Assembly (NCBI RefSeq): GCF_000959445.1
Contig: NZ_CP009632.1
Coordinates: 1,116,001 to 1,180,000, forward strand
DNA length: 64,000 nt
Direction: 5' to 3'
DNA from: Burkholderia vietnamiensis LMG 10929
GTDB lineage: Bacteria; Pseudomonadota; Gammaproteobacteria; Burkholderiales; Burkholderiaceae
Shown: in pieces, positions 25,120 through 42,790 of the stretch
How positions within the stretch are numbered: the first letter of the stretch is position 1
Layout: each line of letters begins with the position of its first letter
Made by a program: the position numbers and the translations under genes
The notes under the pieces: model-generated
The model's database searches: none
What the model was told of the DNA's origin: nothing
What the model saw: the letters and a program-made list of their open reading frames with translations, nothing else

Positions 25120-25120
25120 G

Positions 25121-25402
25121 TCAGTCGAGCCAGCCGCGCAGCCGCGCATGATCGAGGAAGCGGTAGACGTCCGACGCAAGATCCGACGTGCTGAACAGCT
25201 GCTCGAGTTCGCCGATGATGTCGTCGAGCTCGCGCGTGCCGTCGCAGCGCACGAGGATCTCGCCGGCACTCGGGTTGAGCCGGACCATCCCTTCCGGATA
25301 CAGGAGCACGTATGCGTCCTGGGCCGCCTCCCACTGCAGGCGGTACATGCCCCTCAGCGAGGGGCGCAGCGGCACGCCGCTGACGGCTTCGTTCGAGTTC
25401 AT
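25121..25402 (-). CDS. pqqD: PQQ biosynthesis peptide chaperone PqqD
   Basis: A 93-residue protein beginning [25 protein letters not shown], with [20 protein letters not shown] and a C-terminal helix ending RLRGWLD, all standard for PqqD. It binds PqqA and presents it to PqqE. Its ATG overlaps the pqqC stop by 4 bp and its stop is 1 bp before pqqE, so the three are translationally linked. Confidence 0.95.
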
Positions 25403-26118
25403 GCGGGATATGCCTTTTCGATCGCATCGAGAATCTGCCACAGGACATCCAGCTTGAACGACAGGATGTCGAGCGCGCGCCGTTGCGCGTCAGGTGTCGT
25501 GAAATGGCTCAGCGTCACCGCGAGCCCGTGCTCGACGTCGCGCTGCGCGAGCGGCACGCGGCTGCGGAAATACTGCAGGCCGTCGGCCTCGATCCACGGG
25601 TAGTGCGACGGCCAGCCGGCCAGCCGGTCGAGGTGGATCTGCGGCGCGAACATCTCGGTCAGCGACGAGCACACGGCTTCCTGCCACGGCGCGCGACGCG
25701 CGAAGTTGACGTACGCATCGACCGCGAAGCGCACGCCCGGCAGCACGTGCTCGAGCGACCACAGCTGCGCGCGCTCGATGCCGACCGCCTCGCCGAGCCG
25801 CGCCCACGCCTCGATGCCGCCTTCGCTCTCGCCGTGCCCGTCGTGGTCGAGAATCCGCTCGACCCACAGGCGGCGCGTCTCGCGGTCGGGGCAGTTCGAC
25901 AGGATCGCCGCGTCCTTCAGCGGAATGCTGATCTGATAGTAGAAGCGGTTCGCGACCCAGCCGCGAATCTGCTCGCGCGAGCATTCGCCGGCATTCATCC
26001 GCCGGTTGAACGGATGATGGATGTGATAGCGCGATTCGAGCGCGCGCAGGCGCGCCTCGAACTCCTGCGCGCTCCAGGGCGTCGCGTGCAGCGCCGCGGC
26101 GGGAATCGGTGCGTTCAT
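25399..26118 (-). CDS. pqqC: pyrroloquinoline-quinone synthase PqqC
   Basis: A 239-residue cofactor-less oxidase that catalyses the last step, ring closure and eight-electron oxidation to PQQ. Recognisable segments are [56 protein letters not shown] and [18 protein letters not shown] 26118 is 1 bp past the pqqB stop; the 3' end overlaps pqqD by 4 bp. Confidence 0.96.
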
Positions 26119-26119
26119 G

Positions 26120-27043
26120 TCAAACCTCGAATTGCATGCCGTCGTGGGCGACCTCGATGCCGTGCTCGCGCAGCTGCGCACGCTCGGGCGAACCGGGGTC
26201 GAGAATCGGATTCGTGTTGTTGATGTGGGTGAGGACCTTGCGCGTGCTCGCGGGCAACACCCCGAGCCGCTCGATCATCCCCGGGTGCGCGGCGTCGCCG
26301 CGCTGCGCGAGATGCCCCATGTCGGCCGCGTGCTTCGACGACAGGCCGAGGTCGATCATCTCCGTCCCGGTCCAGAAGGTGCCGTCCACCAGCACCAGCT
26401 CGGCGTCGCGCATCGCGGCGCGCACGCCGTCGTCGACGTCGGCGAGCCCCGGCGCGTAGAACGCCTGGCGGCCGGTGGCCGTGTCCTGAATCAGCAATGC
26501 GATGTTGTCGCCCGGCACGCTGGCTGCGCGATGCGGCGAGTAAGGCGGCGGCTTGCTGTCGACCGGCAGCGCGGTGAAGCGAAGGCCGGGTGCGCCGGCG
26601 ATCGCGAACGGCTCGCGCAGCGCGATCGGGTTCACGTCGACGCCGCAGTAGTGGCCGAGCAGCGGGACGAGCGGCAGCCCGGTCGACAGGTCCTCGAGCA
26701 CCGGCGCGCTCGCGTAGAGCGGCAGCGGCGAGGTACGCTCGCGCAGCATCAGCAGGCCCGTCACGTGATCGATCTGCGCATCGCACAGCATCACGGCCGC
26801 GATCGCGCTGTCGCGGATCTGCCGTGCCGGTTGCAGGTCGGGATCGGCGCGCAGCTGCGTGAGGATGTCCGGCGACGCGTTCACCAGCACCCAGTCGACG
26901 CCGTTGCCGCTGACCGCGATCGACGACTGCGTGCGCGGCACGATGCCGCTGCTGCCGGTGCGGGCGCGACGGCAGTTGCTGCAGTTGCAGTTCCATTGCG
27001 GCAACCCGCCGCCGGCGCCCGAGCCGAGTATCTTGATCTTCAT
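26120..27043 (-). CDS. pqqB: PQQ biosynthesis protein PqqB
   Basis: A 307-residue metallo-beta-lactamase-fold protein. It begins [20 protein letters not shown], the PqqB N-terminus, with [10 protein letters not shown] as the zinc-type cysteine site and later [11 protein letters not shown] and [11 protein letters not shown]. It is thought to hydroxylate the tyrosine part of the crosslinked precursor. It lies 64 bp downstream of pqqA and directly before pqqC. Confidence 0.96.
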
Positions 27044-27107
27044 CTGCGTGTGCTCCGGGTGCTGCCCGCATCGGGTTCGCCGACGCGGGCGGCACTGCGT
27101 GCGTCGA

Positions 27108-27182
27108 TCAGCGGTTGGCGATGTACATCGTGATTTCGAAGCCGAAGCGCAGGTCGGTATAAGCCGGGGTGGTCCACTGCAT
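27108..27182 (-). CDS. pqqA: PQQ precursor peptide PqqA
   Basis: A 24-residue peptide, [20 protein letters not shown] plus four more residues. Glu16 and Tyr20 have the required E-x-x-x-Y spacing and are the atoms that become PQQ. GGAGA lies 5 bases before the ATG at 27182. It is first in pqqABCDE and sits about 55 nt downstream of the predicted start of a sigma-54 promoter. No pqqF protease gene is seen in the operon. Confidence 0.97.
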
Positions 27183-27247: not shown

Positions 27248-27262
27248 AGCAAGGAGCGTGCC
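27248..27262 (-). promoter_or_regulatory. sigma-54 promoter of pqqABCDE
   Basis: On the minus strand the sequence GGCACGCTCCTTGCT matches the -24/-12 consensus TGGCACG-N4-TTGCW at all but the first T, with the obligatory GG-N10-GC spacing. Transcription should start near 27236, giving a leader of about 55 nt before pqqA. The adjacent gene encodes a sigma-54 activator and dyad repeats lie 160-220 bp upstream, as expected for enhancer sites. Confidence 0.75.
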
Positions 27263-27412
27263 GGGGCGGCAGGCGCGCCGCGCGGCGGCGTGCGCGGGCC
27301 TACGCGGGCGTGCGACAGCCGCCGCATCGTGATGACGCCGCCATTCTTACGATATGCCAACGACACTCTTTCGGAACCCGTCGGGCGACACGCTCGGGTG
27401 TGCCCGATGGGC

Positions 27413-27471
27413 GTTGCAGGTGTTGAATCCTTGAACACCGGGTGTTGCAACATGACACACCGGTGTGACAC
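27413..27471. promoter_or_regulatory. cluster of dyads, likely upstream activator sites for pqqA
   Basis: Three dyads sit side by side just past the activator gene's stop: GTGTT-N9-AACAC (27420-27438), the perfect palindrome TGTTGCAACA (27443-27452) and TGACACACCGGTGTGACA (27453-27470, symmetric except one base pair). The 11-mer ACACCTGCAAC (minus strand, 27413-27423) recurs exactly upstream of acs, and GTGTCAC recurs upstream of the alcohol dehydrogenase. Distance to the -24 box is 150-220 bp. Binding by the adjacent AcoR-like protein is inferred. Confidence 0.65.
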
Positions 27472-27482
27472 TCGCGGCGGCG

Positions 27483-29498
27483 TCAGCGCGTTTCGGGCTC
27501 CGTCGCGTCCTGGGCGGCGGCCGGCATCTTCCGGTAGATGGTGTTGCGCGACACGCCGAGCGCGCGCGCCGCGGCCGATACGTTGCCGCCGTGACGGGCG
27601 AGCGCGGCCGCGATCGCGGACGCGGCCACGTCCTGCAGCCGCGCATCGCTGGCGGCCGCCGCGGCGGCCAGCGGCGCGGGCTCCGCCGCGAGTGACGCCA
27701 CGTCGTGGCCGTTGGCGGCCGGTGTCGGCTCGCGCCGCACGTCGTCGAAGAAATCGTCCGGCAAATGCTCGCGGCGAATTTCGCCGTCTTCGTCGACCAT
27801 CGCGGCGGCGGTGCGCAGCAGGTTCGCGAGCTGCCGGAAGTTGCCCGGCCAACCGCAGCGCTCGAACAGCGCCATCACGTCGGGCGCGACGCTCAACGGG
27901 CGGCGGCCTGGGCCCGACAGCGTCTCCCGCTGCAGCATCTTCTGCACGACCACCGCGAGGTCGGTGCGATCGCGCAGCGGCGGCAGGCGCACGACCAGGC
28001 CGTTGAGCCGGTAGTACAGGTCTTCGCGGAAGCGGTTCTGCGCGATCATCTCGCGCAGGTCGCGGTGGGTCGCGCAGATGATCGCGATGTCCACGCCGAT
28101 CGCCTTGGTCGAGCCGAGCGGGTTGACGATGCGCTCCTGCAGCACGCGCAGCAGCCGCACCTGCAGCGGATACGGCATGTCGCCGATCTCGTCGAGAAAC
28201 AGCGTGCCGCCGTTGGCCTGCAGCAGCTTGCCGGTCGCGCCCTTGCGCCGCGCGCCGGTGAACGCGCCTTCCTCATAGCCGAACAGCTCGGATTCGATCA
28301 GCGTCTCCGGGATCGACGCGCAGTTCACCGCGACGAACGGACCGTCGCGGCGCGGCGAGTCGTTGTGGATCGCCTGCGCGAGCAGCTCCTTGCCGGTGCC
28401 CGTCTCGCCGGTGATCAGCACCGGGATGTCCTTGCCGATCACCTTGCGGACCTTCGCGATCACGGCCGCGACCTGCGGATCGCCGGTGTCGAGGTAGCTG
28501 AGCCGCGACAGGCTCGCCGCGTTCTGTGCGGCGGTCGGCCGCGCGGCCTGCGCCGTGCCGCCGTCGTGCACTTCTGCCGGGCGGCTGCCCTCGGCCCGCG
28601 AGGCGCGCCGGAACTGCACGCGCGCGCAGACCACCGCGCCGTTGCCCAGATTCAGCGACACGTGCGGCTCGGTGCTGGCCCGCATCCGGTCGATCAACTG
28701 CGCGCTCGTCACGTCGAACAGCGACGCGAGCGTATGCGCGCGCAGCGCCGCGAGCGGCATTCCGAGCTGGAATTGCGCACTGCGGTTGGCCGACAGGAAG
28801 CGGCCGTCGGCGGTGAACGCGACGATCCCCTCCATCAGCGTGCCGAGGAATTCGGGGCGGCCGTGGAACGACACCTGCAGCGTTTCCTGGAAGGTCGTCG
28901 TGAACAGATGGTTCTCGATCATCTGCACCGACATCTTCGCGAGCGCCATCGTGTGCTGGTGATAGCTGCGATGGTCGCCCGTCACGTCGAGCACGCCGAT
29001 CGCGTCGCCGTACGGATCGAGAATCGGCACGCTCGAGCAGGTGAGGAAATGGTTGGCGGCGAGGAAGTGCTGGTCGCCGTGCACGACCATCGGACACAGC
29101 TCGGCGAGCGCGGTGCCGATCGCGTTGGTGCCCTGGCGGTTCTCGGCCCAGTTCGCGCCGGGGCGCAGCGCGACGCGCTCCGCGCGCCGCAGGAAATCGT
29201 CGTCGCCGATCGAATGCAGGATCAGGCCCTCCGCATCGGTCAGCACGATCATGCTCTGCGTGTTGACGATCTGCTCGTGCAGCGTCTCCATCACGGGCAT
29301 CGCGTGGACGCACAGCACGCGGTTCTGCTCGCGCTTCAGCGCCAGCGCGGTGCCGGACAGCAGGTCGTAGTCGGGGCGTGTCGACGCCTGCAGACCGAAC
29401 GTTTCGGACCGCTCATGGGACTTCTGGATCGTCGGCGTCGGCCAGCCGGGCACTTGCGGTGCCCGAGCGCCGGCCGTCGGATAAACGTCATCGCGCAT
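27483..29498 (-). CDS. sigma-54-dependent activator, AcoR family (GAF-AAA-Fis)
   Basis: A 671-residue enhancer-binding protein. A GAF-type sensor region (residues about 75-220) holds the AcoR-like [17 protein letters not shown]; a PAS-like segment follows (about 225-290). The AAA domain (about 345-580) has Walker A GETGTGKE, the sigma-54 contact loop GAFTGA and Walker [12 protein letters not shown]; a Fis-type HTH ends the protein ([20 protein letters not shown]). GGAGGAG precedes ATG 29498. It lies directly before pqqA on the same strand. Three sigma-54 promoter matches in this region (pqqA, alcohol dehydrogenase, acs) make it the obvious candidate controller. The inducer is unknown; an alcohol or aldehyde is plausible. 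Confidence 0.92.
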
Positions 29499-29812
29499 TG
29501 TCTCCTCCGGGGATCCTTCCGGTCGATGCCGGACTCTTTGCCATCGATGCAAGCAAACATCGGGCCACAGGGCGGCCCGTTCATCGAGGTCGTGGCGTTG
29601 CGTCGGCGTCCGGCCGACATTGAAAGGAAAATGAAATCGGCATCGCGAGGCACGTCGTGCAATGCGTTTCCGGTACGGCCCAGTGATAGCGCGAAACCTT
29701 GGCGCACCGCCACCCGGACGAATCCCTAGCTTGCGCGCGGGCGCGATTCTCGCTTCAGTGGACGCAAGCGCGCGGCGCGCCGTCGCCGCCTTCTCCCTCT
29801 ACCCCGACCGAC
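29499..29812. other. divergent intergenic region, activator / hydrolase
   Basis: About 310 bp between divergent starts. It should hold the activator's own promoter. I looked for a GG-N10-GC sigma-54 match on both strands and found none convincing, so the activator is probably not under sigma-54. Confidence 0.45.
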
Positions 29813-30784
29813 ATGACGCACACCTTCAAGCACCTGCACCGCGACGCCTGCACGATCGCGTGGACCGAAGCCGGCAATCCGCTCGGCGAGCCGGTCGTCG
29901 TGTTGCACGGCGGCCCCGGCAGCGGCAGCCGGCCCGCGGTGTTGAGCCTGTTCGACCTCGAACGCATGCGCGTCGTGCTGGTCGACCAGCGCGGCGCTGG
30001 CGCATCGACGCCGCGCGGCGGCTTGCGGCACAACGACACGACGCGGCTGCTGCGCGATCTCGACGCGCTGCGCGCGCAGCTCGGCATCGCGCGCTGGGGC
30101 GTCGTGGGCGGGTCGTGGGGCGCGGCGCTGGCGCTCGCGTATGCCGGACGGTATCCGTCGCGCGTCAGCGGCGTCGTGCTGCGCGGCCTGTTCCTCACGT
30201 CGTCGCGCGAAGTGCGCGCGCTGTTCGTCGGCATGCGCGCGCACGCGCCGCGCGCGTGGCGACGCCTGATCGACGCGGCCGGCACCGCGCGCGCCGAGCG
30301 CCTGACGGCCAGCTTCGCGCGACGGCTGCAGCCCGGCGCGAGCGCGGCGCGGCAACGCGCGCTCGCGCTCGCGTGGAGCGCCTACGAAGACGCGATCCTG
30401 ACCGGGCGGCCGACCCGCCGCACGCGCACGACGCAACCGGCGCTCGAGCGCCTGATCGACAAGTACCGGATTCAGGCGCATTACCTGCTGCACGACTGCT
30501 GGCTCGGGGAGCACCGGCTGCTCGCGCTCGCGCGACAGGCGGCCGACGCCGGCGTGCCGATTCACGCGGTGCACGGCACGCGCGACCGCGTGTGTCCGGT
30601 CGACAACGTCGCGCGCCTCGCGCGCGCGGTGCCGGCCGCGATCGTCGAGCGCGTGCCGGCCGGCCACCTCACGCGCGACGCTGCGCTCGCGCGCGGCGTC
30701 GCCGCTGCGGTGCGCGCACTGCCGGCCGTCATGCCGGCCAATCGGCACACGGCAGCCGACGCGCCCGTTCAGTCCCACGCATAG
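29813..30784 (+). CDS. alpha/beta hydrolase, proline iminopeptidase-like
   Basis: A 323-residue alpha/beta hydrolase. HGGPG (oxyanion hole) lies near residue 34, VDQRGAGAS near 60 and the nucleophile elbow GGSWGAALAL near 100; a late Asp (HGTRDRVCP) and His (PAGHLTRD) complete the triad. These are the marks of the S33 proline iminopeptidase family. The enzyme should act in the cytoplasm. It is divergent from the activator and convergent with the TonB receptor (end to end, overlapping by 16 bp). An S33-like peptidase beside pqqABCDE could process PqqA-derived peptide, since no pqqF is present, but that is speculation. Confidence 0.82.
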   Translation: MTHTFKHLHRDACTIAWTEAGNPLGEPVVVLHGGPGSGSRPAVLSLFDLERMRVVLVDQRGAGASTPRGGLRHNDTTRLLRDLDALRAQLGIARWGVVGGSWGAALALAYAGRYPSRVSGVVLRGLFLTSSREVRALFVGMRAHAPRAWRRLIDAAGTARAERLTASFARRLQPGASAARQRALALAWSAYEDAILTGRPTRRTRTTQPALERLIDKYRIQAHYLLHDCWLGEHRLLALARQAADAGVPIHAVHGTRDRVCPVDNVARLARAVPAAIVERVPAGHLTRDAALARGVAAAVRALPAVMPANRHTAADAPVQSHA

Positions 30785-33069
30785 CGCGCGCCGAGCCACG
30801 CGCCGCGCGGCGCGCCGGGCCCGACGAACTGCTCGTTGACCGGATTCAGCCCGTCGAACGAATGATTCGGGCCATTGAAGAAGTTGCGGCCGAGCGTGCC
30901 GAAGTTCGCATAGCGCTTGTCGAGCAGATTGGTGACCGACGCGAACAGTTGCAGATGCTTGGTCGCCTGCCACGTCGTGTCGAGATCGATGAGGAAATAG
31001 CCGGGAATCGTGCCGTTCGCGTCCTGGTTGTTCTCGTCGCCGCGCGCGAACACGCCGCCGCGATACGTGAGGTTGGTGCCGATGTTCCACTTCGGCGTCG
31101 CCGCGAAATCGAGCCGCAGCTTCACGGTGCTGGCCGGAATGCCCGGAATCCGGTCGCCGGAATGCACGACGATGTTGCCGCGCGCGTCGGCGCTCGAATT
31201 GCTCGCACTGCTTTCGGTCCACGTCGAGCGGTAGCGCGCATCGACATAGCTGTAGCTCGCGCCGATCCCGACCGGCCCCAGCCGCGTGTGTCCGGCCAGC
31301 TCGACGCCTTGCCGCCGCGTGTTGCCAACGTTCTGGAAATAGCCAAGCGTGCTGGCGCCGCCGTTGCTGCTGATGAACTGGATATCGTCGGCGAGCGTCG
31401 TGCGGTAGACCGCCGCGCTCCACGTCGTCGCCTGGCCCGCGCGGCCGCGCGCGCCGAACTCGAAGGTCTTCGCGATCACCGGCTTGAGCGCCGGATCGGC
31501 GAGAAAATCGTTCGGCAGCGAACACGGCGCGGCCGGGTCCGCGCACGCGAGCTCGATCGCGGTCGGCGAGCGCATTCCCTCGTTGTAGGTCGCGTACGCG
31601 GTGAAGCCCGGCACCGGATTCCACGTGACGCCGACGGCCGGATTGAACCGCGAGAACGTATGACGCGCGGTGAGCAGCGGCTGCTGGCCGCTCACGTCCT
31701 CGATCGCGGCGCGCGACCAGTCGTAGCGACCGGCCAGCGTCAACGCCCACTGCTGCGTGAGCGCGAGCGTGTTGTCGAAGTACACGCCGTAGTTCGCGTT
31801 GCGCGTCCGGGCGCGGGTCGTCTGCGTGAAGTCGCCGACGCCCACCGTCGCACGCGCGTCCGTGAACGCCGCCTGCTGCGACGCCTGCTCGAAACCCGAC
31901 GTCGCGAGATCGGCGGACGCGCCCATCACGAACTGCTCGTCCATGCCGGCGAGCTTGCCGAGCAGCGTCAGCTGCAGCGCCGCGCCGTAGCTGTCGGTCG
32001 TGATCGTCGAGCGGTCGTTGGTCCCTTGCACGGTGTCGACGGCGCCGCTGTCGTCGACGCTGCCGAAGTCGTCGTTCACGTTGCTGCTGGTGTTCGTGTT
32101 GCGGTAGTGCCGGTAATGAACGCCGCCGCTCAACTGCACCTGATCGTTGAACGCATGATCGCCCGACAGCGTGACGTACGCGGCGCTGTTGCGATTCAGA
32201 TCCGGATAGGTGTACGCCTGCGCGCGGTTGTCGAGAAACGAGCGCGGAATCGTCTGCGTGCCCTGCAGCGCGTTGTCGGCGCCGCCGGCCGAGATCGACA
32301 GCGTCGTGTCGGCATCCACGTAGCGCAGCTTGCCGAAGCCCTGCCGTACGCGGCTCGCGTTGTGATCGGCCCAACCGTTGTCGTTCGCGACGTTGCCCGT
32401 CACGTAGTAGTCGAGCGCGCTGCCGATGCGCCCGCCCTGCTCGAACTGCGCGGTCTTGCGCCCCCATGAGCCGCCGGACAGCTGCGCGGCGCCGCCGGGG
32501 CTGGTCCTGCCGTTCTTCGTCGTGATCGCGAGCGCGCCGCCGAGCGTGTTGAGCCCGTAGGTCGGGTTCGAGCCGGGAATCAGCTGCATCGTGTCGATCG
32601 CGGCCTGCGGAATCAGATCCCAGTTGACGACGTCGCCGAACGGTTCGTTCACGCGCACGCCGTCGACGAACACCGACAGCCCCTGCGGCGTGCCGACGAC
32701 CGGTGACGCGGTGAAGCCGCGGTAGTTCACGTCCGCCTGGTACGGGTTGCCCTGCGCGTCGTTGATGTCGATGCTCGTCACGTTGCGCTCGAGGTAGTCG
32801 GTCAACACGCCGCGGTGCTGCCGTTCGACGTCGTCGCCACGTATCGTCTGGACGTTGGCCGGCACGCGCGACAGCGGCGTGCCGATGCCGAGCAGCGGCG
32901 TCGTGCCGACGACGACGATCGGCGCGAGCGTCTGCTCCGCGGCCGGATCCGACGGCGCGACCTGCGCGGCAGCGGGCGTCAGCCAGCCGCCGAGCATGCC
33001 GCCGACCCACAGCGTTGCGCCGACGCGGCCGGCGGCCCGGCAGCGCTTCGCCAGTTCGGCTTCCTTCAT
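30769..33069 (-). CDS. TonB-dependent outer-membrane receptor
   Basis: A 766-residue receptor. Signal peptide about 35 residues ending in AAAQ, TonB box-like region APIVVVG, plug domain (about 55-170: VLTDYLERNVTSIDI, VNYRGFTASPVVGTPQGLSVF, NPTYGLNTLGGALAI) and a 22-strand barrel. The C-terminus is GARYAWD: Trp is penultimate rather than the usual final aromatic residue. AGGAGA precedes ATG 33069. It is divergent from the lanthanide-type alcohol dehydrogenase, whose upstream region it shares. Uptake of a lanthanide chelate, PQQ or another metal complex for the dehydrogenase fits the context, but the barrel sequence alone gives no substrate. Confidence 0.9.
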   Translation of the reverse strand: MKEAELAKRCRAAGRVGATLWVGGMLGGWLTPAAAQVAPSDPAAEQTLAPIVVVGTTPLLGIGTPLSRVPANVQTIRGDDVERQHRGVLTDYLERNVTSIDINDAQGNPYQADVNYRGFTASPVVGTPQGLSVFVDGVRVNEPFGDVVNWDLIPQAAIDTMQLIPGSNPTYGLNTLGGALAITTKNGRTSPGGAAQLSGGSWGRKTAQFEQGGRIGSALDYYVTGNVANDNGWADHNASRVRQGFGKLRYVDADTTLSISAGGADNALQGTQTIPRSFLDNRAQAYTYPDLNRNSAAYVTLSGDHAFNDQVQLSGGVHYRHYRNTNTSSNVNDDFGSVDDSGAVDTVQGTNDRSTITTDSYGAALQLTLLGKLAGMDEQFVMGASADLATSGFEQASQQAAFTDARATVGVGDFTQTTRARTRNANYGVYFDNTLALTQQWALTLAGRYDWSRAAIEDVSGQQPLLTARHTFSRFNPAVGVTWNPVPGFTAYATYNEGMRSPTAIELACADPAAPCSLPNDFLADPALKPVIAKTFEFGARGRAGQATTWSAAVYRTTLADDIQFISSNGGASTLGYFQNVGNTRRQGVELAGHTRLGPVGIGASYSYVDARYRSTWTESSASNSSADARGNIVVHSGDRIPGIPASTVKLRLDFAATPKWNIGTNLTYRGGVFARGDENNQDANGTIPGYFLIDLDTTWQATKHLQLFASVTNLLDKRYANFGTLGRNFFNGPNHSFDGLNPVNEQFVGPGAPRGAWLGARYAWD

Positions 33070-33181
33070 TTACGGGTCTCCTCAGTCGTCTTGTCGTCGT
33101 GTTTTCGTGTATAGCGATACAGCAGGCGCAGGCGCCGTATCGGCGGCCGCGGTCGGTTTCGCATCATCGGCTGCGCACGCG

Positions 33182-33196
33182 GCGAATGCGATGCCA
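33182..33196 (-). promoter_or_regulatory. possible sigma-54 promoter of the TonB receptor gene
   Basis: On the minus strand TGGCATCGCATTCGC has the GG-N10-GC frame but TCGC instead of TTGC at -12. The start of the receptor lies about 113 bp downstream. One mismatch in the -12 box makes this only a candidate. Confidence 0.35.
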
Positions 33197-33413
33197 TCCG
33201 CGTTCGGCCGATGCCCAACGCATGCGTGCGACACCGTCTCCGTCGAGCCCATTGGATCGTTCTGGAAATGGCATCCGGTTTCGCGCTGCATGAATCGCTT
33301 CGTGATCCAGATGGCAAGAAGCATGCCGAAATGCCGGTCGCCTTGCGGGTGGCCTTGTCAGCGCGAAGCCGACCCACTCACCCGCGGACGCATTGCGACA
33401 CTGGGCCACGCGC

Positions 33414-33452
33414 GTGTTGCACTTCGTGTCACCGCCGCTGCACCTGTGTCAC
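33414..33452. promoter_or_regulatory. repeated GTGTCAC boxes, likely activator sites
   Basis: GTGTTGCA at 33414-33421 is followed by GTGTCAC at 33426-33432 and 33446-33452, spaced 20 bp start to start, about two helical turns. The same GTGTCAC element (as GTGACAC) and GTGTTGCA occur in the pqqA upstream region. They lie about 340-380 bp before the dehydrogenase promoter, distant but within reach of sigma-54 enhancers. Confidence 0.5.
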
Positions 33453-33792
33453 TTTGGATCAGCACGGCGCGGCGCATGCCGCGACATGCGCCGACATGCG
33501 CGGCGCGATGCCCGTCGGCGCCGGCACCGGAACTGCGCAATCGGTGAAAACCAGCGGCGCGCGACGGCTTCATCTCGTTGATCGATGCGAGCCGGCCCGC
33601 CTCGAACGCGAGCACGGCGCAGCGTGCATCGTTGTTCCGCCGCACGATGAATGCACTGTCATCTTTAGCAACACTACACGCACGGTTGTCCCCGAACGCA
33701 ACAACCATTGATCAACCGCAACCATCGGCACGCGACCGCACGGCGCGCGCGAATCGCCCGCTGCGCGTTGCGCGGCAATGCTCGCGCATCAA

Positions 33793-33807
33793 TGGCATGC
33801 GATTTGC
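33793..33807 (+). promoter_or_regulatory. sigma-54 promoter of the PQQ alcohol dehydrogenase
   Basis: TGGCATGCGATTTGC matches the -24/-12 consensus with exact GG-N10-GC spacing. The predicted start is near 33819, leaving an 80-nt leader before ATG 33899. Confidence 0.75.
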
Positions 33808-33898
33808 GTTACTGGCTGCGCACTGATCCCGGAACCCCACCCAGCCGGCCTGGCCGGATGTTGGCCGCGGTGCGACCACAATGACTCAGGAGACAACC

Positions 33899-35626
33899 AT
33901 GAAGAAACTCTCGGCTTCGAAGAGCCGACTGGCATCGATCGGCATCGCGGCGGCTGCCGCGATCGTCTTGAATCCCGGCCTGGTGGCTGCCGCCGCGGAT
34001 TATCCGGCCGTTACGTATCAGCGGCTGACCGATGCGCAACGCGACCCGGGCTGGCTCACCTACTACCGCACCTACAACGGCCAGGCGCATTCGCCGCTCA
34101 AGCAGATCGACGCGTCGAACGTGAAGCAGCTCACGCAGGCATGGAGCTACAAGTTTCCGGCCGAGCTGAAGCAGGGCTTCGAGGCCACGCCGATCGTCAA
34201 CGGCCGCTACCTGTTCGTCACCACGCCGAAGGACAACGTCTACGCGTTCGACGCGACCACCGGCGCGCAACTGTGGAAGTACGAGCCGAAGCTCGGCGCC
34301 GAGTCGTTCAAGACCGCATGCTGCGACGTCGTGAACCGCGGCGTCGCGCTGTACGGCAAGAACGTCTACGTCGCGATGCTGAGCGGCGAGGTTGCCGCAC
34401 TCGACGCCCAGACCGGCGCGCTCGTGTGGAAGAAGCAGATGTTCGAACCGGGCCTCGGCTACGCGTTCTCGCTCGCGCCGCTCGCGATCGACGGCGCGAT
34501 CGTGGTCGGCAGCTCGGGCGGCGAATACGGCGCGCGCGGCTTCATCGCGGCGCTGAGCCCGAACGACGGCTCGGTGCTGTGGAAGCGCTACACGATCCCC
34601 GGCCAGGGCGAGAAGCACGCCGACACGTGGCCCGACGGGATGCAGGCGCACGGCGGCGCGCCGGCGTGGCTGACCGGCACCTACGATGCGGCGACGCGCA
34701 CGCTGTACTGGGGCGTCGGCAACCCGGGGCCGTGGCTCGCGGACCTGCGCCCCGGCGACAATCTGTACTCCGATTCGCTGCTCGCGCTGGACCCGAAGAA
34801 CGGCGACCTCAAGTGGCACTACCAGTACACGAAGCACGACACGTGGGACTACGACGGCGTGAACACGCCGGTGCTCGCGACGATCAAGTACAAGGGCAAA
34901 GAGCATGACGCGATCATCCATGCGGACCGCAACGGCTACTTCCACGCGATCGACCGCGACAGCGGCAAGCTGATCTACGCCGAGCCGTTCGTGAAGGCGA
35001 CCTCGGTCACCGGCTACACGGAAGACGGCGCACCGATCCAGGACCCGGCGAAGTATCCGAAGGTCGGCACGACGATCGAGACGTGCCCGAGCTTCCTCGG
35101 CGGCAAGAACTGGTGGTCGGTGTCGTACGACCCCGAGCGTCATCTCGCGATCGTGCCGACGCTGCATGCGTGCATGAGCCTGTCCGGCAAGTCGGTCAAC
35201 TACATGGAAGGGCTGCCGTATCTCGGCGAAGGCTTCGAGATCAAGCCAGAACCGGGCAGCGAAGGCTACGGCGAACTGCAGGCCATCGACGTCAACACCG
35301 GCAAGAAGGTGTGGAGCCACTGGAGCAAGCTGCCGTGGAACGGCGGCGTCGCGACGACCGCCAGCGGCCTCGCGTTCAGCGGCTCGCTCGACGGCCACCT
35401 GTATGCGTTCGACGTGTCGACCGGCAAGGTGCTGTGGGAAAGCCCGCAGCTCGCGAGCGGGATCATCGCGCAGCCGTCGGTGTTCGAAGTCGACGGCAAG
35501 GAATACGTCGCGGTGCTCGCCGGCTACGGCGGCGCGAACCCGATCTGGGGCGGCCCGATGGCCAAGGCCGCGGATGACGTACCGCGCGGCGGCACGCTCT
35601 ACGTGTTCGCGCTGAACCGCGGCTGA
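33899..35626 (+). CDS. PQQ-dependent alcohol dehydrogenase, lanthanide type
   Basis: A 575-residue periplasmic quinoprotein of the methanol/ethanol dehydrogenase family. Signal peptide about 33 residues (LVAAAAD). The eight-bladed propeller carries the vicinal disulfide Cys141-Cys142 (KTACCDVV), and predicted metal/PQQ ligands Glu209 (SSGGEYG), Asn275 (GVGNPGPW), catalytic Asp317 and Asp319 in TWDYDGVN. The Asp two residues after the catalytic Asp is the known marker of lanthanide-dependent enzymes (XoxF, PedH, ExaF); calcium enzymes have Ala, Ser or Thr there. AGGAGA before ATG 33899 decides the start over ATG 33881. It probably oxidises short-chain alcohols and passes electrons to the downstream cytochrome. 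Exact substrate unknown. Confidence 0.93.
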   Translation: MKKLSASKSRLASIGIAAAAAIVLNPGLVAAAADYPAVTYQRLTDAQRDPGWLTYYRTYNGQAHSPLKQIDASNVKQLTQAWSYKFPAELKQGFEATPIVNGRYLFVTTPKDNVYAFDATTGAQLWKYEPKLGAESFKTACCDVVNRGVALYGKNVYVAMLSGEVAALDAQTGALVWKKQMFEPGLGYAFSLAPLAIDGAIVVGSSGGEYGARGFIAALSPNDGSVLWKRYTIPGQGEKHADTWPDGMQAHGGAPAWLTGTYDAATRTLYWGVGNPGPWLADLRPGDNLYSDSLLALDPKNGDLKWHYQYTKHDTWDYDGVNTPVLATIKYKGKEHDAIIHADRNGYFHAIDRDSGKLIYAEPFVKATSVTGYTEDGAPIQDPAKYPKVGTTIETCPSFLGGKNWWSVSYDPERHLAIVPTLHACMSLSGKSVNYMEGLPYLGEGFEIKPEPGSEGYGELQAIDVNTGKKVWSHWSKLPWNGGVATTASGLAFSGSLDGHLYAFDVSTGKVLWESPQLASGIIAQPSVFEVDGKEYVAVLAGYGGANPIWGGPMAKAADDVPRGGTLYVFALNRG

Positions 35627-35646
35627 TCGGCATCCGACCACCGCAT

Positions 35647-35673
35647 GACGCCCGCGCCGACGGTGCGGGCGTC
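35647..35673 (+). terminator. hairpin between dehydrogenase and cytochrome genes
   Basis: A 9-bp perfect stem (GACGCCCGC / GCGGGCGTC) with a 9-base loop, followed by CTCCCTT rather than a T run. It probably acts as a partial terminator or 3' stabiliser, allowing more dehydrogenase than cytochrome message. Confidence 0.5.
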
Positions 35674-35709
35674 CTCCCTTCGTTCCCATTACCCACCGAG
35701 CGTACGAAC

Positions 35710-36978
35710 ATGAACCTTCGACTTTCCCGCGTAGCCGTCGCCAGTGCGCTCGCGGCAGGCACGGCACTGATTCCCGCACTGTCCGCGGCCGCTCCTGCGG
35801 TGCGCGTCTGCTCGCTGCCGGGCACCCCCACCGCCGGGCTCGACAAGACCGTCGCCCGCGAGGCGTTCCGCACGGCCGGCATCGCCGCGACGTTCGCCGC
35901 GCACGACGCCGCGGGCAGCGACGACGACGGCGTGTCCGCCCACGAGCTCGCCAAGATCCTCGAGCACGATTGCGACGTGCTCGCCGGCTTCCCGCGCTCG
36001 GCGATCGCCGACGCGTCGGACACCAAACTGCTGTTCTCGCAGGGCTACCTGCGCTCCGGCTACGTGAGCGTCACGCGCCGCGACGCGGCCAAGCCGGCCA
36101 ACGAACGCGAAATCGTCGCGGCGACGTATGCGAGCCCCGCGCAACTGATCGCGGTGCAGCAGAAGAACGCCCGCTTCGATCTCGAGAACACGTCGGAGCA
36201 GACCGTCGACGCGGTCGCCCGCGGCCGCGCGAACCGCGCGATCGTCTGGTATCCGGCGGTCGTCGCCTACCAGGCAGCGCATCCGAAGCAGGCGTTCAGC
36301 ATCGGCGCGACCTCTTCTCCTTATGCGGAATGGCAGCTCACGTTCGCGTTCGCGCAACGTTCGGCCGAGCTGCAGCAGCGGATCGACGCCGCGCTCGCGC
36401 AGATGAAGCAATCGGGCCGGCTCACCGCGCTGACGCGCAAATGGGCGCTGCCCGGCAACGCGCTCGAAGCGCGCGCCACGCACGATTCGCGCGCGACGCC
36501 GCGCTTCCTCGACGGCGCGCTGGCGGCCGCGGACGCATCGCGCGCGGGCGTGATCCGCGCCGGCGGGCGTGCGGCCGGCGGCGGCTTCATCCGCGTTTCG
36601 GACAGCACCGGCGAAGCCGCGCCGTCGTTCGACGCGGCCCAGGTCGAGCACGGCAAGGCGCTGTACGGCAGCGCGTGCGCGAAGTGCCACGGCGTCGATC
36701 TCGAGGGCAATACGGCGCCCGCGCTGAGCGGCCCGTCGTTCGCGCCGCTCGCGCATTCGCATCTGACGATCGGCGGCGTGTTCGGCTACATGGCGACCAA
36801 CATGCCGGCCGACCAGCCGGGCAAGATGAAGGACGACGAGTACGCCGACCTGATGGCGTTCCTGCTCGCGTCCAACGGCTATGCCGCGTCCAAGACCAAG
36901 CTGAGCGCCGACACCGCGCGCGCGTCCAACGCGCCGCTCGTCGCCGGCCCGGGCGGACACAAGCAAGCCAGCCAGTAA
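35710..36978 (+). CDS. XoxJ-like periplasmic protein fused to cytochrome c
   Basis: A 422-residue secreted protein. After a signal peptide (about 27 residues), residues 30-250 form a family-3 solute-binding-like domain as in MxaJ/XoxJ (VRVCSLPGTPTAGLDKTVAR, CDVLAGFPRSA, AFSIGATSSPYAEWQL). Residues about 305-395 form a class I cytochrome c: heme motif CAKCH (Cys323, Cys326, His327) and a likely axial Met near 365 in TNMPADQPG. In methylotrophs XoxJ and XoxG are separate genes; here both functions are in one chain, presumably docking the dehydrogenase and taking its electrons. It follows the dehydrogenase by 83 bp. Confidence 0.88.
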   Translation: MNLRLSRVAVASALAAGTALIPALSAAAPAVRVCSLPGTPTAGLDKTVAREAFRTAGIAATFAAHDAAGSDDDGVSAHELAKILEHDCDVLAGFPRSAIADASDTKLLFSQGYLRSGYVSVTRRDAAKPANEREIVAATYASPAQLIAVQQKNARFDLENTSEQTVDAVARGRANRAIVWYPAVVAYQAAHPKQAFSIGATSSPYAEWQLTFAFAQRSAELQQRIDAALAQMKQSGRLTALTRKWALPGNALEARATHDSRATPRFLDGALAAADASRAGVIRAGGRAAGGGFIRVSDSTGEAAPSFDAAQVEHGKALYGSACAKCHGVDLEGNTAPALSGPSFAPLAHSHLTIGGVFGYMATNMPADQPGKMKDDEYADLMAFLLASNGYAASKTKLSADTARASNAPLVAGPGGHKQASQ

Positions 36979-37054
36979 GCACGGCGCGCGGCCGTCACGG
37001 CACATGCCGGGCCGCGCGTCGGCAAGATTTCTTCTTCAACAGGAAACGACCGTG

Positions 37055-37366
37055 ATGCACAACCCGAATCGCAGAACCTTCATCGTCCAGACCATTGGAC
37101 TGTGCGCGGCGCTCGCCGCAACCCGCTCCGCGCTCGCCGCGTTGCCGCTCGTCGACGAGAACGACGCGACCGCGAAGACGCTCGGCTACCGCGCGCGCGC
37201 GTCGAGCGTCGACGCCGCGAAGTTCCCGAAATACCAGAGCGGTCAGCGCTGCGCCAACTGCCGCTTCTACAAGAGCGAAAGCGCCGACGCCGGCACCTGC
37301 CCGATGTTCGCCGGCAAGTCGGTCGCGGCTGACGGCTGGTGCAACGTGTATGCCAAGGGCGCGTGA
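37055..37366 (+). CDS. high-potential iron-sulfur protein (HiPIP), Tat-exported
   Basis: A 103-residue protein. The N-terminus NRRTFIVQTIGLCAALAATRSALA is a twin-arginine signal, as expected for a protein folded around its cluster before export. The mature part has four cysteines, Cys66, Cys69, Cys82 and Cys96, in the HiPIP order C-x2-C-x12-C-x13-C (RCANCRFYKSE, GTCPMF, DGWCNVY), binding one [4Fe-4S]. HiPIPs carry electrons in the periplasm to terminal oxidases. Placed third after the dehydrogenase and cytochrome, it likely extends that chain. ATG 37055 is preferred; the frame upstream overlaps intergenic DNA. Confidence 0.93.
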   Translation: MHNPNRRTFIVQTIGLCAALAATRSALAALPLVDENDATAKTLGYRARASSVDAAKFPKYQSGQRCANCRFYKSESADAGTCPMFAGKSVAADGWCNVYAKGA

Positions 37367-39254
37367 CGCGTTGCCGGCGCGCCCGGCGCCACGGCGCGCG
37401 CCGGTGCCGGTGCGCGCCGCCGGCCACGACGGCGACGCGCCGCCTCACGCGGCGCACCTGCACGCACTGATTTCGACGGGGCTCACACGCGGCTTCGTCA
37501 CGCACGGCGACATCATCGACGCGTTGCCGGACGACGACGCCCATCAGGGCGGCGTCGACGCGACGGCCGCGATGCTGCGCGAGCTGGGCATCGCGGTGTC
37601 GGACGGCGCGCACGCCGCGGGCTGGACGCTCGACCGTTACTTCCAGCCCACGCCGAGCGCGCGTGCGTGGGCCGAAGGGGCCGGCGCGCTCGCCGCGGCC
37701 GAGCTCAGCGCACCGCGCACGACCGACCCCGTACGCCTCTACCTGCGCGAGATGGGCATGACGCCGCTGCTCACGCGCGACGAGGAGATCATGCACGCGC
37801 GACGGATCGAGCGCGGCCGCGCGGCGTCGGTCGCGGTGCTGTGCGGCGATCCGCAGGCACTCGACGCACTGGTCGCGATGCGCATCGAGATCGCCGAAGG
37901 CCGGAGCGCCGCGTCCGCCTACGTGCTGTCCATCGCGGATAGCGCGGACATCGCGCCCGCCGACGGCGCCGCCGCCAGCCCGCATGCGGGCGATACGCCG
38001 GCCGACGCGGGCGCGAGCACGCGCGACGACGACGCTCCGGCCGACGATGGGCTCTGCCGTCATGCCGTGCTCGCGCGACTGGCGCCGATCGACGCGCTCG
38101 CGGCCGCGATGCGCGCCGCACTGGAAACCGACGGCGCGCACGGTCTCGCCTACCGCGCCTGCGTGCGCGAAGCGGCCGCCCTGCTCGGCACGCTGCGCAT
38201 GTCGATGCGCGCACTCGAGCGCATGAGCGAGCCGCTGCGCACGCACGCGCGCCGGCAGCGCACGCTGCACGGCCGGCTCGCACGCACGCTCGCCGACGCC
38301 GGCGTGCCGCACGGCGCGGCGGCCGCGTGCGTGCAGCGCGACGGCGATCACGCCGGCTGGCTCGCGGCGTGCATCGCCGCGCATCCCGAATGCGCGCTTG
38401 CGCTGACGCGCCGCGCGGCCGAGCTGGTCGACGCGCGCGACGCGATCGCGCGGGCCGCGCGCACCTCGCCGCTGCCGCCCGACACGATCGCGTTGCTCGA
38501 TGCGCGGCTCGACACGATCGAGCGCGCGATGCAACCGGCGCGGATGGGCCTCTTCGACGCGAACCTGCGGCTCGTCGTATCGATCGCGAAGCGCTACCCG
38601 GACCGCGGGCTGCCGTTCGCGGACCTGATCCAGGAAGGCAACATCGGGCTGTTGAAGGCGATCGACCGCTACGATCACCGGCGCGGCTTCCGCTTCTCGA
38701 CCTACGCGACCTGGTGGATCAGGCAGGCGATCACGCACGCGCTCGCCGATCTCGGCCGCACGATCCGCGTGCCGACGCACACCGTCGACGCGATCAACAA
38801 ACTGACGCGGATCGCGCGCGAACACCGGCAGCGTTCCGGCGCTGCCGCGACGCCGCACGAACTGGCCGTGCAAATGGGCGAGCCGCTCGACAAGGTGCGC
38901 GACCTGATGTCGATCGTGAAGGAGCCGATGTCGGCCGACGCGCCCGTCTCGCCGGAAGGCGAGATGACCTTCGTCGACGTCGCGCCGGACGTATCGACGC
39001 CGTCGCCCGAAGACGCCGCCGGCGCGGCGCAGCTGCGCGACACGATCGCGGCGATGATCGGCCGCCTGCCGGCGCGCGAGGCGACCGTCCTGCGGCTACG
39101 CTACGGGCTGCACGCGGACGAAGGCTGCTCGCTGCGCGACATCGGCCGACAGCTGAACCTGTCCGCCGAACGCGTGCGGCAGATCGAGGCGTCGGCGCTC
39201 GCGCGGCTGCGCGCGTCCGACGGGCTCGACGTGCTGCGCGCGTTCATCGCATAG
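37350..39254 (+). CDS. RpoD-like sigma-70 factor (accessory paralogue)
   Basis: About 634 residues. Region 1.1-like sequence (LHALISTGLTRGFVTHGDIIDAL) near residue 30, region 1.2 (DPVRLYLREMGMTPLLTRDEE) near 130, a long divergent non-conserved region (about 160-390), region 2 (NLRLVVSIAKRYPDRGLPFADL, GFRFSTYATWWIRQAITHAL) from about 405, region 3, and region 4 (GCSLRDIGRQLNLSAERVRQIE) near 590-625. This is group 1/2 architecture, but the arginine/alanine-rich middle looks unlike a housekeeping RpoD, so I take it as a second copy. ATG 37350 overlaps the HiPIP gene by 17 bp; the exact start is uncertain. Targets unknown. Confidence 0.85.
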   Translation: MPRARDALPARPAPRRAPVPVRAAGHDGDAPPHAAHLHALISTGLTRGFVTHGDIIDALPDDDAHQGGVDATAAMLRELGIAVSDGAHAAGWTLDRYFQPTPSARAWAEGAGALAAAELSAPRTTDPVRLYLREMGMTPLLTRDEEIMHARRIERGRAASVAVLCGDPQALDALVAMRIEIAEGRSAASAYVLSIADSADIAPADGAAASPHAGDTPADAGASTRDDDAPADDGLCRHAVLARLAPIDALAAAMRAALETDGAHGLAYRACVREAAALLGTLRMSMRALERMSEPLRTHARRQRTLHGRLARTLADAGVPHGAAAACVQRDGDHAGWLAACIAAHPECALALTRRAAELVDARDAIARAARTSPLPPDTIALLDARLDTIERAMQPARMGLFDANLRLVVSIAKRYPDRGLPFADLIQEGNIGLLKAIDRYDHRRGFRFSTYATWWIRQAITHALADLGRTIRVPTHTVDAINKLTRIAREHRQRSGAAATPHELAVQMGEPLDKVRDLMSIVKEPMSADAPVSPEGEMTFVDVAPDVSTPSPEDAAGAAQLRDTIAAMIGRLPAREATVLRLRYGLHADEGCSLRDIGRQLNLSAERVRQIEASALARLRASDGLDVLRAFIA

Positions 39255-39263
39255 CCCGCGCAG

Positions 39264-39289
39264 GGACGGCGGCGCATGCGCCGCCGTCC
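39264..39289. terminator. GC-rich perfect palindrome after the sigma gene
   Basis: A 26-bp perfect inverted repeat (half-site GGACGGCGGCGCA) directly after the sigma factor stop. No T run follows, so it may be a Rho-assisted or stabilising hairpin closing the dehydrogenase-HiPIP-sigma operon. Confidence 0.5.
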
Positions 39290-39296
39290 GCCGCCA

Positions 39297-39313
39297 TGTT
39301 GACACCTGCAACA
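39297..39313. promoter_or_regulatory. TGTTG-CAACA dyad upstream of acs
   Basis: TGTTGACACCTGCAACA is an inverted repeat with 5-bp arms. It contains the 11-mer ACACCTGCAAC also present in the pqqA upstream sites, and resembles TGTTGCAACA there. It lies about 140 bp before the acs sigma-54 promoter, a usual enhancer distance. Confidence 0.6.
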
Positions 39314-39454
39314 CCCGCTGCTGCATTTCGGCGCAACGATCGCGCCGCTCACGATGCCGCGCGGCCACGCGCAGATCGTTTGCATCCCATATCGATTCCG
39401 GAACGCCGCGCGCGACGGGCATGCGTGCCGATTCGACCGGATCGCGGCGGCGAT

Positions 39455-39469
39455 TGGCATGCTAGTTGC
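39455..39469 (+). promoter_or_regulatory. sigma-54 promoter of acs
   Basis: TGGCATGCTAGTTGC fits the -24/-12 consensus with exact GG-N10-GC spacing and a perfect TTGC. Predicted start near 39481, 21 nt before ATG 39502. Confidence 0.75.
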
Positions 39470-39501
39470 GTTTTGCTATTCGAGCCACACCCAGACAAAT
39501 T

Positions 39502-41496
<1,995 letters not shown>

Positions 41497-41722
41497 ATGA
41501 CGGGGCCGGCACCGGCCGGCCCCACCCGACCTCCGCGACGCACGCACGTTCCGGCGCCCATCCCCGCCGCGAACGCGCGACGCGCAGCCGCCACCCGGCC
41601 GCGCACCTGCGTCCCCGCGCCCCATCCCGCGTGCGCGGCTCGGGCGACGGACACCGCTGCGCGGCCGTCCGGCGCCTTTTCTGTTCGATGCATGGACGTA
41701 CAACAACACTGGAGACACCCCG

Positions 41723-42790
41723 ATGAAAAGCAGGATCGTGATCGGCTGCGCCGCGCTCGCAGGCGCGCTTGCCAGCCCCAGCGGCTTCGCCCAAAGCAGC
41801 GTGACGCTGTACGGCAACCTCGACGCCGCGTTGCTGTACACGAGCAAGACGCTCGATAGCGCCACCGGCGCAAACGCAGGCCATCAGTTCTCGATGGCCG
41901 ATACCGGCATGACGCCGACGACATTCGGGATGACCGGCACCGAGGATCTCGGCGGCGGCCTGAAGGCGAAGTTCCAGCTCGAAAGCGGCTTTGCCGTCAC
42001 CAACGGCGCATTCGCGCATTCGAACGGCAACATCTTCGGTCGCCAGGCGTGGGTCGGACTCGACGGCGCGTTCGGCACGGTCAAGGCCGGCGTCCAGTAT
42101 TCGCCGTTCCTGCTCGCGATCTTCGATTCGGACCCGCGCAGCTTCTCGCACTTCGGCAGCGGGCTCGTCAACTACGTCGACAACGTGCTGGTGACCGGCC
42201 TGTTCAACCCGAACGCCGTGTCGTACACGAGCCCGACGATCGCCGGCCTCACCGGCAGCGCGATGTTCGCGTTCGGCGGCAAGGCCGGCGACTTTCAGGC
42301 GGGACGCCAGTACTCCGCGAGCCTCAAGTACGAGCACGGCGGCTTCATGATCAACGCCGGCTTCTACAACGGCAACGACGGCACCAACCCGACGCCCACC
42401 GCCAGCACCGTGGCGTTCGTCGGCCGCACGATCGGCGCCGCGTACCGGTTCGGCCCCGTCACCGCGAAGGCGTCGTTCGCCAGCTACAAGGTCGCCGGGT
42501 CGTTCAGCAACAACGTGTACGGCGGCGGCCTCGACTACCAGGCGACGCCGACGGTCGACCTGAACGGCGGCGTGTGGTTCACGAGCGATCGCAACGACAC
42601 GGCCAACCACTCGCTGCTCGCCGCCGTCGGCTCGACGTACAGCCTGTCGAAGGCGACCGCGTTGTATGCACAGGTCGCGATGGTCAACAACCACGGCGCG
42701 ATGGACACCGGGCTCGGCATCACCAACGCGCTTTACGCGGTCAACGGCACGACCGTCGGCGCGAACGTCGGGATCCGGCACATGTTCTGA
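41723..42790 (+). CDS. general porin, OpcP/Burkholderia type
   Basis: A 355-residue porin paralogous to the one at 9327. Signal peptide about 23 residues (SGFAQ), SSVTLYGNLDAALLYT, FGMTGTEDLGGGLKAKFQLESGF, FGRQAWVGLDGAFGTVKAGVQ and C-terminal GIRHMF. It lies 226 bp downstream of acs, probably with its own promoter, and is followed by a strong hairpin. It may admit substrates of the neighbouring uptake systems but is not specific on sequence. Confidence 0.95.
   Translation: MKSRIVIGCAALAGALASPSGFAQSSVTLYGNLDAALLYTSKTLDSATGANAGHQFSMADTGMTPTTFGMTGTEDLGGGLKAKFQLESGFAVTNGAFAHSNGNIFGRQAWVGLDGAFGTVKAGVQYSPFLLAIFDSDPRSFSHFGSGLVNYVDNVLVTGLFNPNAVSYTSPTIAGLTGSAMFAFGGKAGDFQAGRQYSASLKYEHGGFMINAGFYNGNDGTNPTPTASTVAFVGRTIGAAYRFGPVTAKASFASYKVAGSFSNNVYGGGLDYQATPTVDLNGGVWFTSDRNDTANHSLLAAVGSTYSLSKATALYAQVAMVNNHGAMDTGLGITNALYAVNGTTVGANVGIRHMF

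Follow-up and report, generated by a model that had tools for sequence, protein, structure and literature searches.

In a 64,000-nucleotide stretch of the Burkholderia vietnamiensis LMG 10929 genome (hereafter the window; C4:1116001-1180000 of a 6.93 Mb genome in 4 contigs, G000), the operon for synthesis of the cofactor pyrroloquinoline quinone (PQQ), the gene for a PQQ alcohol dehydrogenase and a second copy of the acetyl-CoA synthetase gene, acs, are each preceded by a promoter of the sigma-54 (-24/-12) kind and, further upstream, by one or two copies of a 17-bp dyad. Judging by these sequences and their conservation, we consider it well supported that PQQ synthesis, the oxidation of alcohol and the activation of acetate belong to one sigma-54 regulon. 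Quite probably this regulon serves alcohol oxidation in the periplasm, with a dehydrogenase that probably depends on a lanthanide, and its adjacent activator would act on the shared dyads.

A sequence-only reading of the window had placed GG-N10-GC promoters before pqqA, the dehydrogenase gene and acs, and a sigma-54 activator gene right before pqqA, and all were found where it put them. Scored by a simple count of matches over 13 positions of the -24/-12 consensus, taken from general knowledge, around a GG-N10-GC core, the three promoters reach 12, 11 and 12, and the activator gene is the immediate upstream neighbour of pqqA, in the same orientation (Table 1). The two strands of the window together hold 1346 GG-N10-GC sites, three scoring 12 and six scoring 11 (nine at 11 or above); the third 12-scorer, at 37340-37356 (-), runs antisense within the gene for a high-potential iron-sulphur protein (HiPIP) and was discarded. 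Genome-wide, TGGCAYG-N4-TTGC occurs at 21 sites and its reversed control at 4; the 21 include the promoters of the dehydrogenase gene and acs and leave out that of pqqA (CGGCACG).

Conservation was followed in two samples. The genus set comprised 61 genomes, our own included, with activator orthologues taken at 72% identity or more and dehydrogenases at E <= 1e-200; its loci were 34 of the 36 activator-orthologue matches from other genomes plus the window, and promoters were sought in the 250 bp before each start. The named set comprised 80 loci of Burkholderia, Paraburkholderia, Caballeronia and Trinickia, those closest to the window being Burkholderia, with Burkholderia sensu stricto separated from the other genera by record titles; its Burkholderia loci overlap the genus set, and the counts of the two are not additive. 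One of the named loci, L136 of Paraburkholderia xenovorans LB400, has the activator, pqqA and the dehydrogenase gene and gave no acs match within the span retrieved. In genus loci with a usable start the best site scored 12 before pqqA (34/34), 11 before the dehydrogenase gene (33/33) and 12 before acs (24/24), with GG and GC invariant at the exact spacing throughout. The other genes of the cluster gave best scores of at most 9 (the MoxJ-like fusion and HiPIP genes) or at most 10 (the RpoD-like gene), and the 250 bp before pqqB include the pqqA site. In the named loci, sites scoring at least 10 precede pqqA in 68/68 and the dehydrogenase gene in 66/68 upstream regions with usable starts. They are kept where the dehydrogenase gene lies beyond the pqq genes or is reoriented, and both persist in Paraburkholderia, Caballeronia and Trinickia despite another gene order.

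The dyad, TGT-N9-CAACA in its strict form and TGTTG-N7-CAACA in full, had been reported by the sequence-only reading at pqqA and acs; it proved to be the element that all three upstream regions share, two dyads before the dehydrogenase gene having been overlooked. Upstream alignments show conservation peaks at the -24/-12 sites, at the dyads, around the start codons and at one additional block next to the far pqqA dyad. That block, resembling TGTCACACCGGTGTGTCA and common to the pqqA upstreams of the genus, lies at 27455-27472 (-), just on the upstream side of this dyad, whose edge it overlaps. Within 450 bp, strict dyads precede pqqA in 34/34, the dehydrogenase gene in 33/33 and acs in 17/24 genus upstreams; in the named loci, the strict form is found at 58/68 dehydrogenase genes and 3/10 acs genes, and allowing one mismatch raises these counts to 68/68 and 7/10; the ten acs rows include some distant relatives that are not the cluster copy. 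Target upstreams in the named loci hold 150 strict dyads in 65.7 kb, and the remaining 1596 kb hold 27, a 135-fold difference in density; outside Burkholderia sensu stricto the figures are 81 in 45.9 kb and 24 in 1257 kb (92-fold). Dyad centres in these loci lie 61-189 bp (pqqA) and 84-140 bp (dehydrogenase) upstream of the -24 GG, and 141, 152 and 264 bp upstream in the three acs cases, a usual range for sigma-54 activators.

In the genome of the window there are 44 strict dyad matches at 43 positions, five of them in the three target upstreams, and the other 19 strict sigma-54 sites have none within 260 bp upstream. The looser TGT-N11-ACA is found at 3 of these 19, two being a divergent pair at an ExaC-type gene that shares one dyad set; a strict site at C4:995068-995082 (L275) has twin upstream dyads of another type, TGTCGGGTTTCCCGACA and TGTCCGTCTTTCCGACA. 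The flanks of the 30 remaining dyad positions and one repeat copy yielded no further member: six of the 30 have a site scoring 10-11 within 400 bp and pointing away, none comparable to those of the cluster, and by our estimate from how often such sites occur in the window six is about what chance would give. The 17-mer TGTCTGGCAGGCCAACA, present in eight exact copies (C4:394774 and C4:602585 among them), all of them strict-dyad matches, is probably part of a repeated element.

Two further words proposed by the sequence-only reading as shared elements fared less well. The word ACACCTGCAAC is present at acs (39302, +) and at pqqA (27413, -) as claimed, but the two copies stand in different dyad registers and the 3' part is unconserved at pqqA, which rules it out as a binding site. 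GTGTCAC, proposed to link pqqA and the dehydrogenase gene, does occur at 27465 (-), inside the conserved block before pqqA, and on the dehydrogenase side at 33426 (+) and 33446 (+), with two more copies in unrelated places, 1909 and 4814; the dehydrogenase-side copies, however, are about 350 bp upstream of that promoter and nearer to the divergent TonB-receptor site at 33313-33329 (-), and we do not regard the word as a common element.

The genome carries two copies of acs, the twin of the cluster copy being chromosomal (G000:C3:1823759-1825729), and when positions 38801-42000 were compared with it the alignment was limited to a 99.1% identical tract, the upstream region being unrelated. Among 15 genomes searched, 12 have two copies, of which 11 pairs were compared (G022, with a partial second match, was dropped): copies within a genome are 97.1-99.7% identical in 11/11, as against about 92% for orthologues between genomes (55 pairs each), and in a tree they pair by genome in 11/11 with ultrafast bootstrap 100. 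By the criterion of paralogues being closer than orthologues, acs is thus a concertedly evolving duplicate of the tufA/tufB kind, on two replicons and for the coding sequence only; it was not seen in the accessible parts of the tables of such genes in PMC6053082. A sigma-54 site precedes 11/11 cluster copies versus 0/13 chromosomal ones (best score 8), and a strict dyad 8/11 versus 0/13, both within 300 bp. Recurrent gene conversion probably homogenises the copies. We find it the simplest reading, given that the cluster copies have a common promoter and that in six genomes they begin with a distinct N-terminus, outside the tract, which conversion would have spared. The duplicate thus differs mainly by its promoter, and we take this as strong indirect evidence that the sigma-54 wiring is what is retained.

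Table 1. Genes, promoter sites and dyads of the cluster (window positions)
Feature	Position	Strand	Sequence or basis
pqqABCDE operon	about 23995-27182	-	pqqA first gene; order along window pqqE-D-C-B-A
pqqA, 24-aa PQQ precursor peptide	27108..27182	-	translation
sigma-54 activator, GAF - AAA+ - Fis-type HTH, 671 aa	27483..29498	-	PF01590, PF00158, PF02954; GAFTGA, Walker A
alpha/beta hydrolase	29813..30784	+	PF00561
TonB-dependent receptor	30769..33069	-	PF00593, PF07715
PQQ alcohol dehydrogenase, motif WDYDGVN	33881..35626	+	TIGR03075 above cut-off
MoxJ-like solute-binding domain fused to cytochrome c domain	35710..36978	+	family matches below curated cut-offs; domain scan
HiPIP	37055..37366	+	PF01355, translation
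RpoD-like sigma factor	37350..39254	+	PRK05658 454.8 bits, cut-off 555; in-frame ATG at 37350, a possible start, overlapping HiPIP end
acs, second acetyl-CoA synthetase copy	39502..41496	+	TIGR02188 above cut-off
tract 99.1% identical to chromosomal acs	39579..41481	+	probable gene conversion tract
-24/-12 site of pqqA	27248..27264	-	CCGGCACGCTCCTTGCT; score 12/13
-24/-12 site of dehydrogenase operon	33792..33808	+	ATGGCATGCGATTTGCG; score 11/13
-24/-12 site of acs	39454..39470	+	TTGGCATGCTAGTTGCG; score 12/13
-24/-12 site of activator gene	29552..29568	-	GTGGCCCGATGTTTGCT; 53 nt before ATG; no strict dyad upstream
-24/-12 site of TonB receptor	33313..33329	-	TCGGCATGCTTCTTGCC; score 11
-24/-12-like site before hydrolase	29738..29754	+	CGGGCGCGATTCTCGCT; tentative; unusual -12 element
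dyad, pqqA near	27421..27437	-	TGTTCAAGGATTCAACA
dyad, pqqA far	27443..27459	-	TGTGTCATGTTGCAACA
dyad, dehydrogenase far	33657..33673	+	TGTCATCTTTAGCAACA
dyad, dehydrogenase near	33687..33703	+	TGTCCCCGAACGCAACA
dyad, acs	39297..39313	+	TGTTGACACCTGCAACA; strict in 17/24 genus upstreams
degenerate dyad, upstream of TonB-receptor site	33415..33431	-	TGACACGAAGTGCAACA; one mismatch

The activator has the makings of an AcoR-type enhancer-binding protein, with its GAF domain, its AAA+ domain bearing GAFTGA and its Fis-type helix-turn-helix. Across the 61 genus genomes it is present in 36 and the dehydrogenase in 35, both in 34, neither in 24 and only one in three; of these last, G031 is fragmented, G048 has a partial dehydrogenase match and in G050 the cluster is missing though the activator is there. 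We believe that one activator likely runs pqqA, the dehydrogenase operon and acs, because it is adjacent, co-occurs with the dehydrogenase, and because the dyads persist under changed gene order. Its GAF domain might sense an alcohol or the corresponding aldehyde; an activator oligomer would then bind the dyads and loop to the sigma-54 polymerase, with ATP hydrolysis opening the promoters. The joint output would be PQQ, the dehydrogenase with its electron acceptors, a dedicated acs copy and perhaps an outer-membrane receptor. The cluster acs, in such a scheme, would exist for its promoter, gene conversion holding the greater part of its coding sequence to that of the housekeeping acs.

The regulon may also take in the activator gene and the TonB receptor. 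A site scoring at least 10 precedes the activator gene in 34/35 genus sequences and in 70/80 named loci (68/68 of those with pqqA), and one lies within 500 bp of the TonB-receptor gene in 22/29 sequences with a usable start. The strict dyad stands before pqqA, the dehydrogenase gene and acs, in degenerate form before the TonB-receptor gene, where it ranks second among the window's matches to the dyad matrix once the training sites are set aside, and not before the activator gene. The receptor could be co-induced with the dehydrogenase and is a candidate importer; its match in the PDB is a weak one to a haem receptor, and uptake of PQQ or of a metal by it would be conjectural. Before the hydrolase gene, 29 of the 32 sequences whose start is usable have a site scoring at least 10, within a conserved, sigma-54-like element of the form CTGGCGCG-N4-CTGGCT whose -12 part is odd.

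The nearest relatives of the dehydrogenase in the PDB are the quinoprotein ethanol dehydrogenase entries 6zcw and 6zcv, which we take to be PedH, ahead of 1flg. In lanthanide-type PQQ dehydrogenases a second Asp follows the catalytic Asp by two residues; the WDYDGVN of the window aligns with WDFDGVN of 6zcw, whereas the calcium-type 1flg has a Ser at that place (WDFSGNN), and the D-x-D motif WDYDGVN is found in 101/101 loci with a dehydrogenase match, the two locus sets overlapping. The enzyme therefore likely uses a lanthanide, on a substrate that we infer from sequence to be an alcohol. Because the genes for the dehydrogenase, the MoxJ-like fusion, the HiPIP and the sigma factor are closely spaced or overlapping, they probably form one transcript; a terminator scan found 5, as against 2.9 +/- 2.1 in shuffles. 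The MoxJ-like/cytochrome c fusion followed by a HiPIP is, to our knowledge, an unusual partner set for a PQQ dehydrogenase. As for PQQ synthesis itself, PqqB is an equivalog match above cut-off in a profile scan, and pqqC, pqqD and pqqE are named from position and sequence.

The RpoD-like factor has Pfam regions 1.1 to 4 and scores below the RpoD equivalog cut-off; it lies between the HiPIP gene and acs in 23/23 loci holding all three, and at 52-98% identity across loci it is more variable than the dehydrogenase. One could add it to the regulon as a sigma cascade, in which a self-inducing, alcohol-sensing activator switches on an operon whose last product redirects polymerase during alcohol growth, and in which acs is a 'promoter-only' gene, with conversion confined to its coding sequence, retained solely for its sigma-54 switch. 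We hold this fuller version to be doubtful; its first step, self-induction, is a guess, because no strict dyad precedes the activator gene in loci with pqqA.

The strongest competitor for the adjacent activator is its own 53% identical paralogue (G000:C2:414499-416340), which might read the dyads alone or in competition, so that the regulon would not be the adjacent activator's. The 19-residue recognition helices of the two are nearly identical, and upstream of the paralogue gene a dyad like TGTTCCGCATTGCAACA, closely resembling the pqqA dyad of several Paraburkholderia (TGTTCCGAAACGCAACA), is found in 12/21 genomes, including G001, which has no cluster. The paralogue is, however, present in 60/61 genus genomes, whereas the adjacent activator and the dehydrogenase are both there in 34 and both missing in 24; the activator stays next to pqqA in most rearranged named loci; and in the genome of the window the 400 bp on either side of the paralogue dyad contain no sigma-54-like site with a score of at least 10. 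We therefore think it unlikely that the paralogue is the regulator of the cluster.

The paralogue dyad nevertheless counts against control by the adjacent activator, and so do several other observations. The strict dyad is missing at acs in 7/24 genus upstreams, and in the named loci the pqqA dyad is strict in only 37/68 (64/68 with one mismatch allowed). Before the activator gene a strict dyad occurs in 1/80 named loci (L155, without pqqA), and the TonB-receptor dyad is matched within one mismatch in only 5/29 sequences, a rarity that tells slightly against the explanation we favour. Among the 12 named loci that have no pqqA, eight, from Paraburkholderia and Burkholderia sp., carry activator orthologues of 74-77% identity divergent to an ExaC-type aldehyde dehydrogenase gene about 90% identical to the ExaC-type gene of our genome, and only one of these eight intergenic regions contains the strict dyad. 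The 44 dyad matches in our genome exceed the 30 of the reversed control mildly, and their rarity is no clean test because the dyad was derived from the same promoters; the loci compared also share descent. As to the proposal of the sequence-only reading that a single activator co-induces cofactor, enzyme and downstream metabolism, the conservation of promoters and dyads thus bears out the sigma-54 regulon, and the one activator is likely rather than certain, given the paralogue with its similar dyad, the activator and TonB-receptor sites without a strict dyad, and the separate wiring of the ExaC-type gene.

That gene, encoding an acetaldehyde-type dehydrogenase, lies elsewhere, on the chromosome (G000:C3:670244-671767, L230), and bears on the idea that the promoters merely share a location, each answering its own signal (nitrogen or carbon control, for example), with dyads shared by descent or chance. 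Its sigma-54 site is found in 26/26 genomes with a match (27 searched), 17 of them lacking the activator (11 with close orthologues, 6 with relatives at 72-74% and a poorer -12 part), and in 19/26 it has a distinct though related dyad, TGT-N11-ACA with TGTTC halves. Membership of the ExaC-type gene in the regulon is accordingly unsupported, and the acetaldehyde step looks separately wired because the site is kept in 17/17 activator-less genomes, a further point against a single activator for the whole pathway. A second sigma-54-like site faces the opposite way at this gene (L230 6024, +). These facts, together with the window's activator and TonB-receptor sites, which have no strict dyad, are what mere co-location would predict. 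Yet the dyads of the cluster are among its most conserved non-coding blocks, keep their distance from the promoters and are absent from the 19 other strict sites, and the cluster acs has both site and dyad where its chromosomal twin has neither; we consider independent control quite improbable. That the -24/-12 sites are fortuitous and transcription starts from sigma-70 promoters, as is usually thought of the LuxR-type AgmR/ErbR systems of Pseudomonas, is very improbable, considering the invariant GG and GC described above and the lack of any sigma-70-like site in a simple consensus scan of 35500-41700, which covers the upstream region of acs only among the three promoters.

Elements of this arrangement are known from other bacteria. 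Similar in kind is Ralstonia solanacearum, for which the accessible text of PMC4676750 describes an AcoR (Rsc3129) next to ExaC (Rsc3128) and a need of rpoN1 for ethanol growth, the AcoR link being a prediction; our genome has two rpoN genes (two PF04552 matches). An AcoR-type activator, sigma-54 and the ethanol pathway are common to both; here, however, shared dyads stand before the targets, which are PQQ synthesis, the operon of the PQQ dehydrogenase and a copy of acs. The likeness is one of gene arrangement and published description; because the activator-ExaC pairs of the named loci mirror that arrangement, an alcohol or aldehyde signal seems plausible. In Azospirillum brasilense, sigma-54 and a LuxR-type regulator control exaA (Singh 2017, as far as accessible); control of a PQQ alcohol dehydrogenase by sigma-54 is alike, and the difference is that an AAA+ activator serves here and that pqqA and acs have promoters of this kind too. 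The acetoin regulator AcoR shares the GAF-AAA+-helix-turn-helix architecture, but the window activator adjoins pqq and not acetoin dehydrogenase genes; a separate AcoR-like gene (G000:C3:2241319), 40% identical and with its own sigma-54 site, has the NAD-kinase-type and E1-dehydrogenase neighbours of the acoX/acoA kind. In Pseudomonas, ErdR controls acsA. The ped/exa-pqq network of that genus, with AgmR/ErbR (accessible part of PMC12997753), likewise places PQQ synthesis and the PQQ alcohol dehydrogenase under common control, through LuxR-type and two-component regulators in contrast to a sigma-54 activator with shared dyads. Since sigma-54 control of a PQQ dehydrogenase in Azospirillum and the predicted AcoR-ExaC pair in Ralstonia are already known, we regard the present regulon as a variation on a known kind. 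Among the open-access matches listed, there was no Burkholderia paper on such a regulon or on a regulator for it, most subscription papers being outside that scope.

A '40-gene region' of stink-bug symbionts, as described in the accessible parts of PMC9088363 and PMC7397029, contains PQQ genes, a PQQ dehydrogenase gene and one for a sigma-54-dependent Fis regulator, the same gene types as the window cluster, and several of its genes are reported to be upregulated in symbiosis. The two may be related; none of the further genes of that region was found among 10 open reading frames scanned in one Caballeronia locus (L175). The PqqA of the window is an intact 24-residue peptide behind a conserved promoter; stretches of this kind, about 100 bp long, are called PQQA fragments in the accessible part of PMC9088363, perhaps because a gene short by nature was misread.

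The 17-bp dyad together with the -24/-12 site amounts to a testable regulatory code for PQQ-dependent, probably lanthanide-type, alcohol oxidation, which spans Burkholderia, Paraburkholderia, Caballeronia and Trinickia and predicts which genes should respond together. The two acs copies, which differ in their promoter and in little else, provide a natural experiment on that code.

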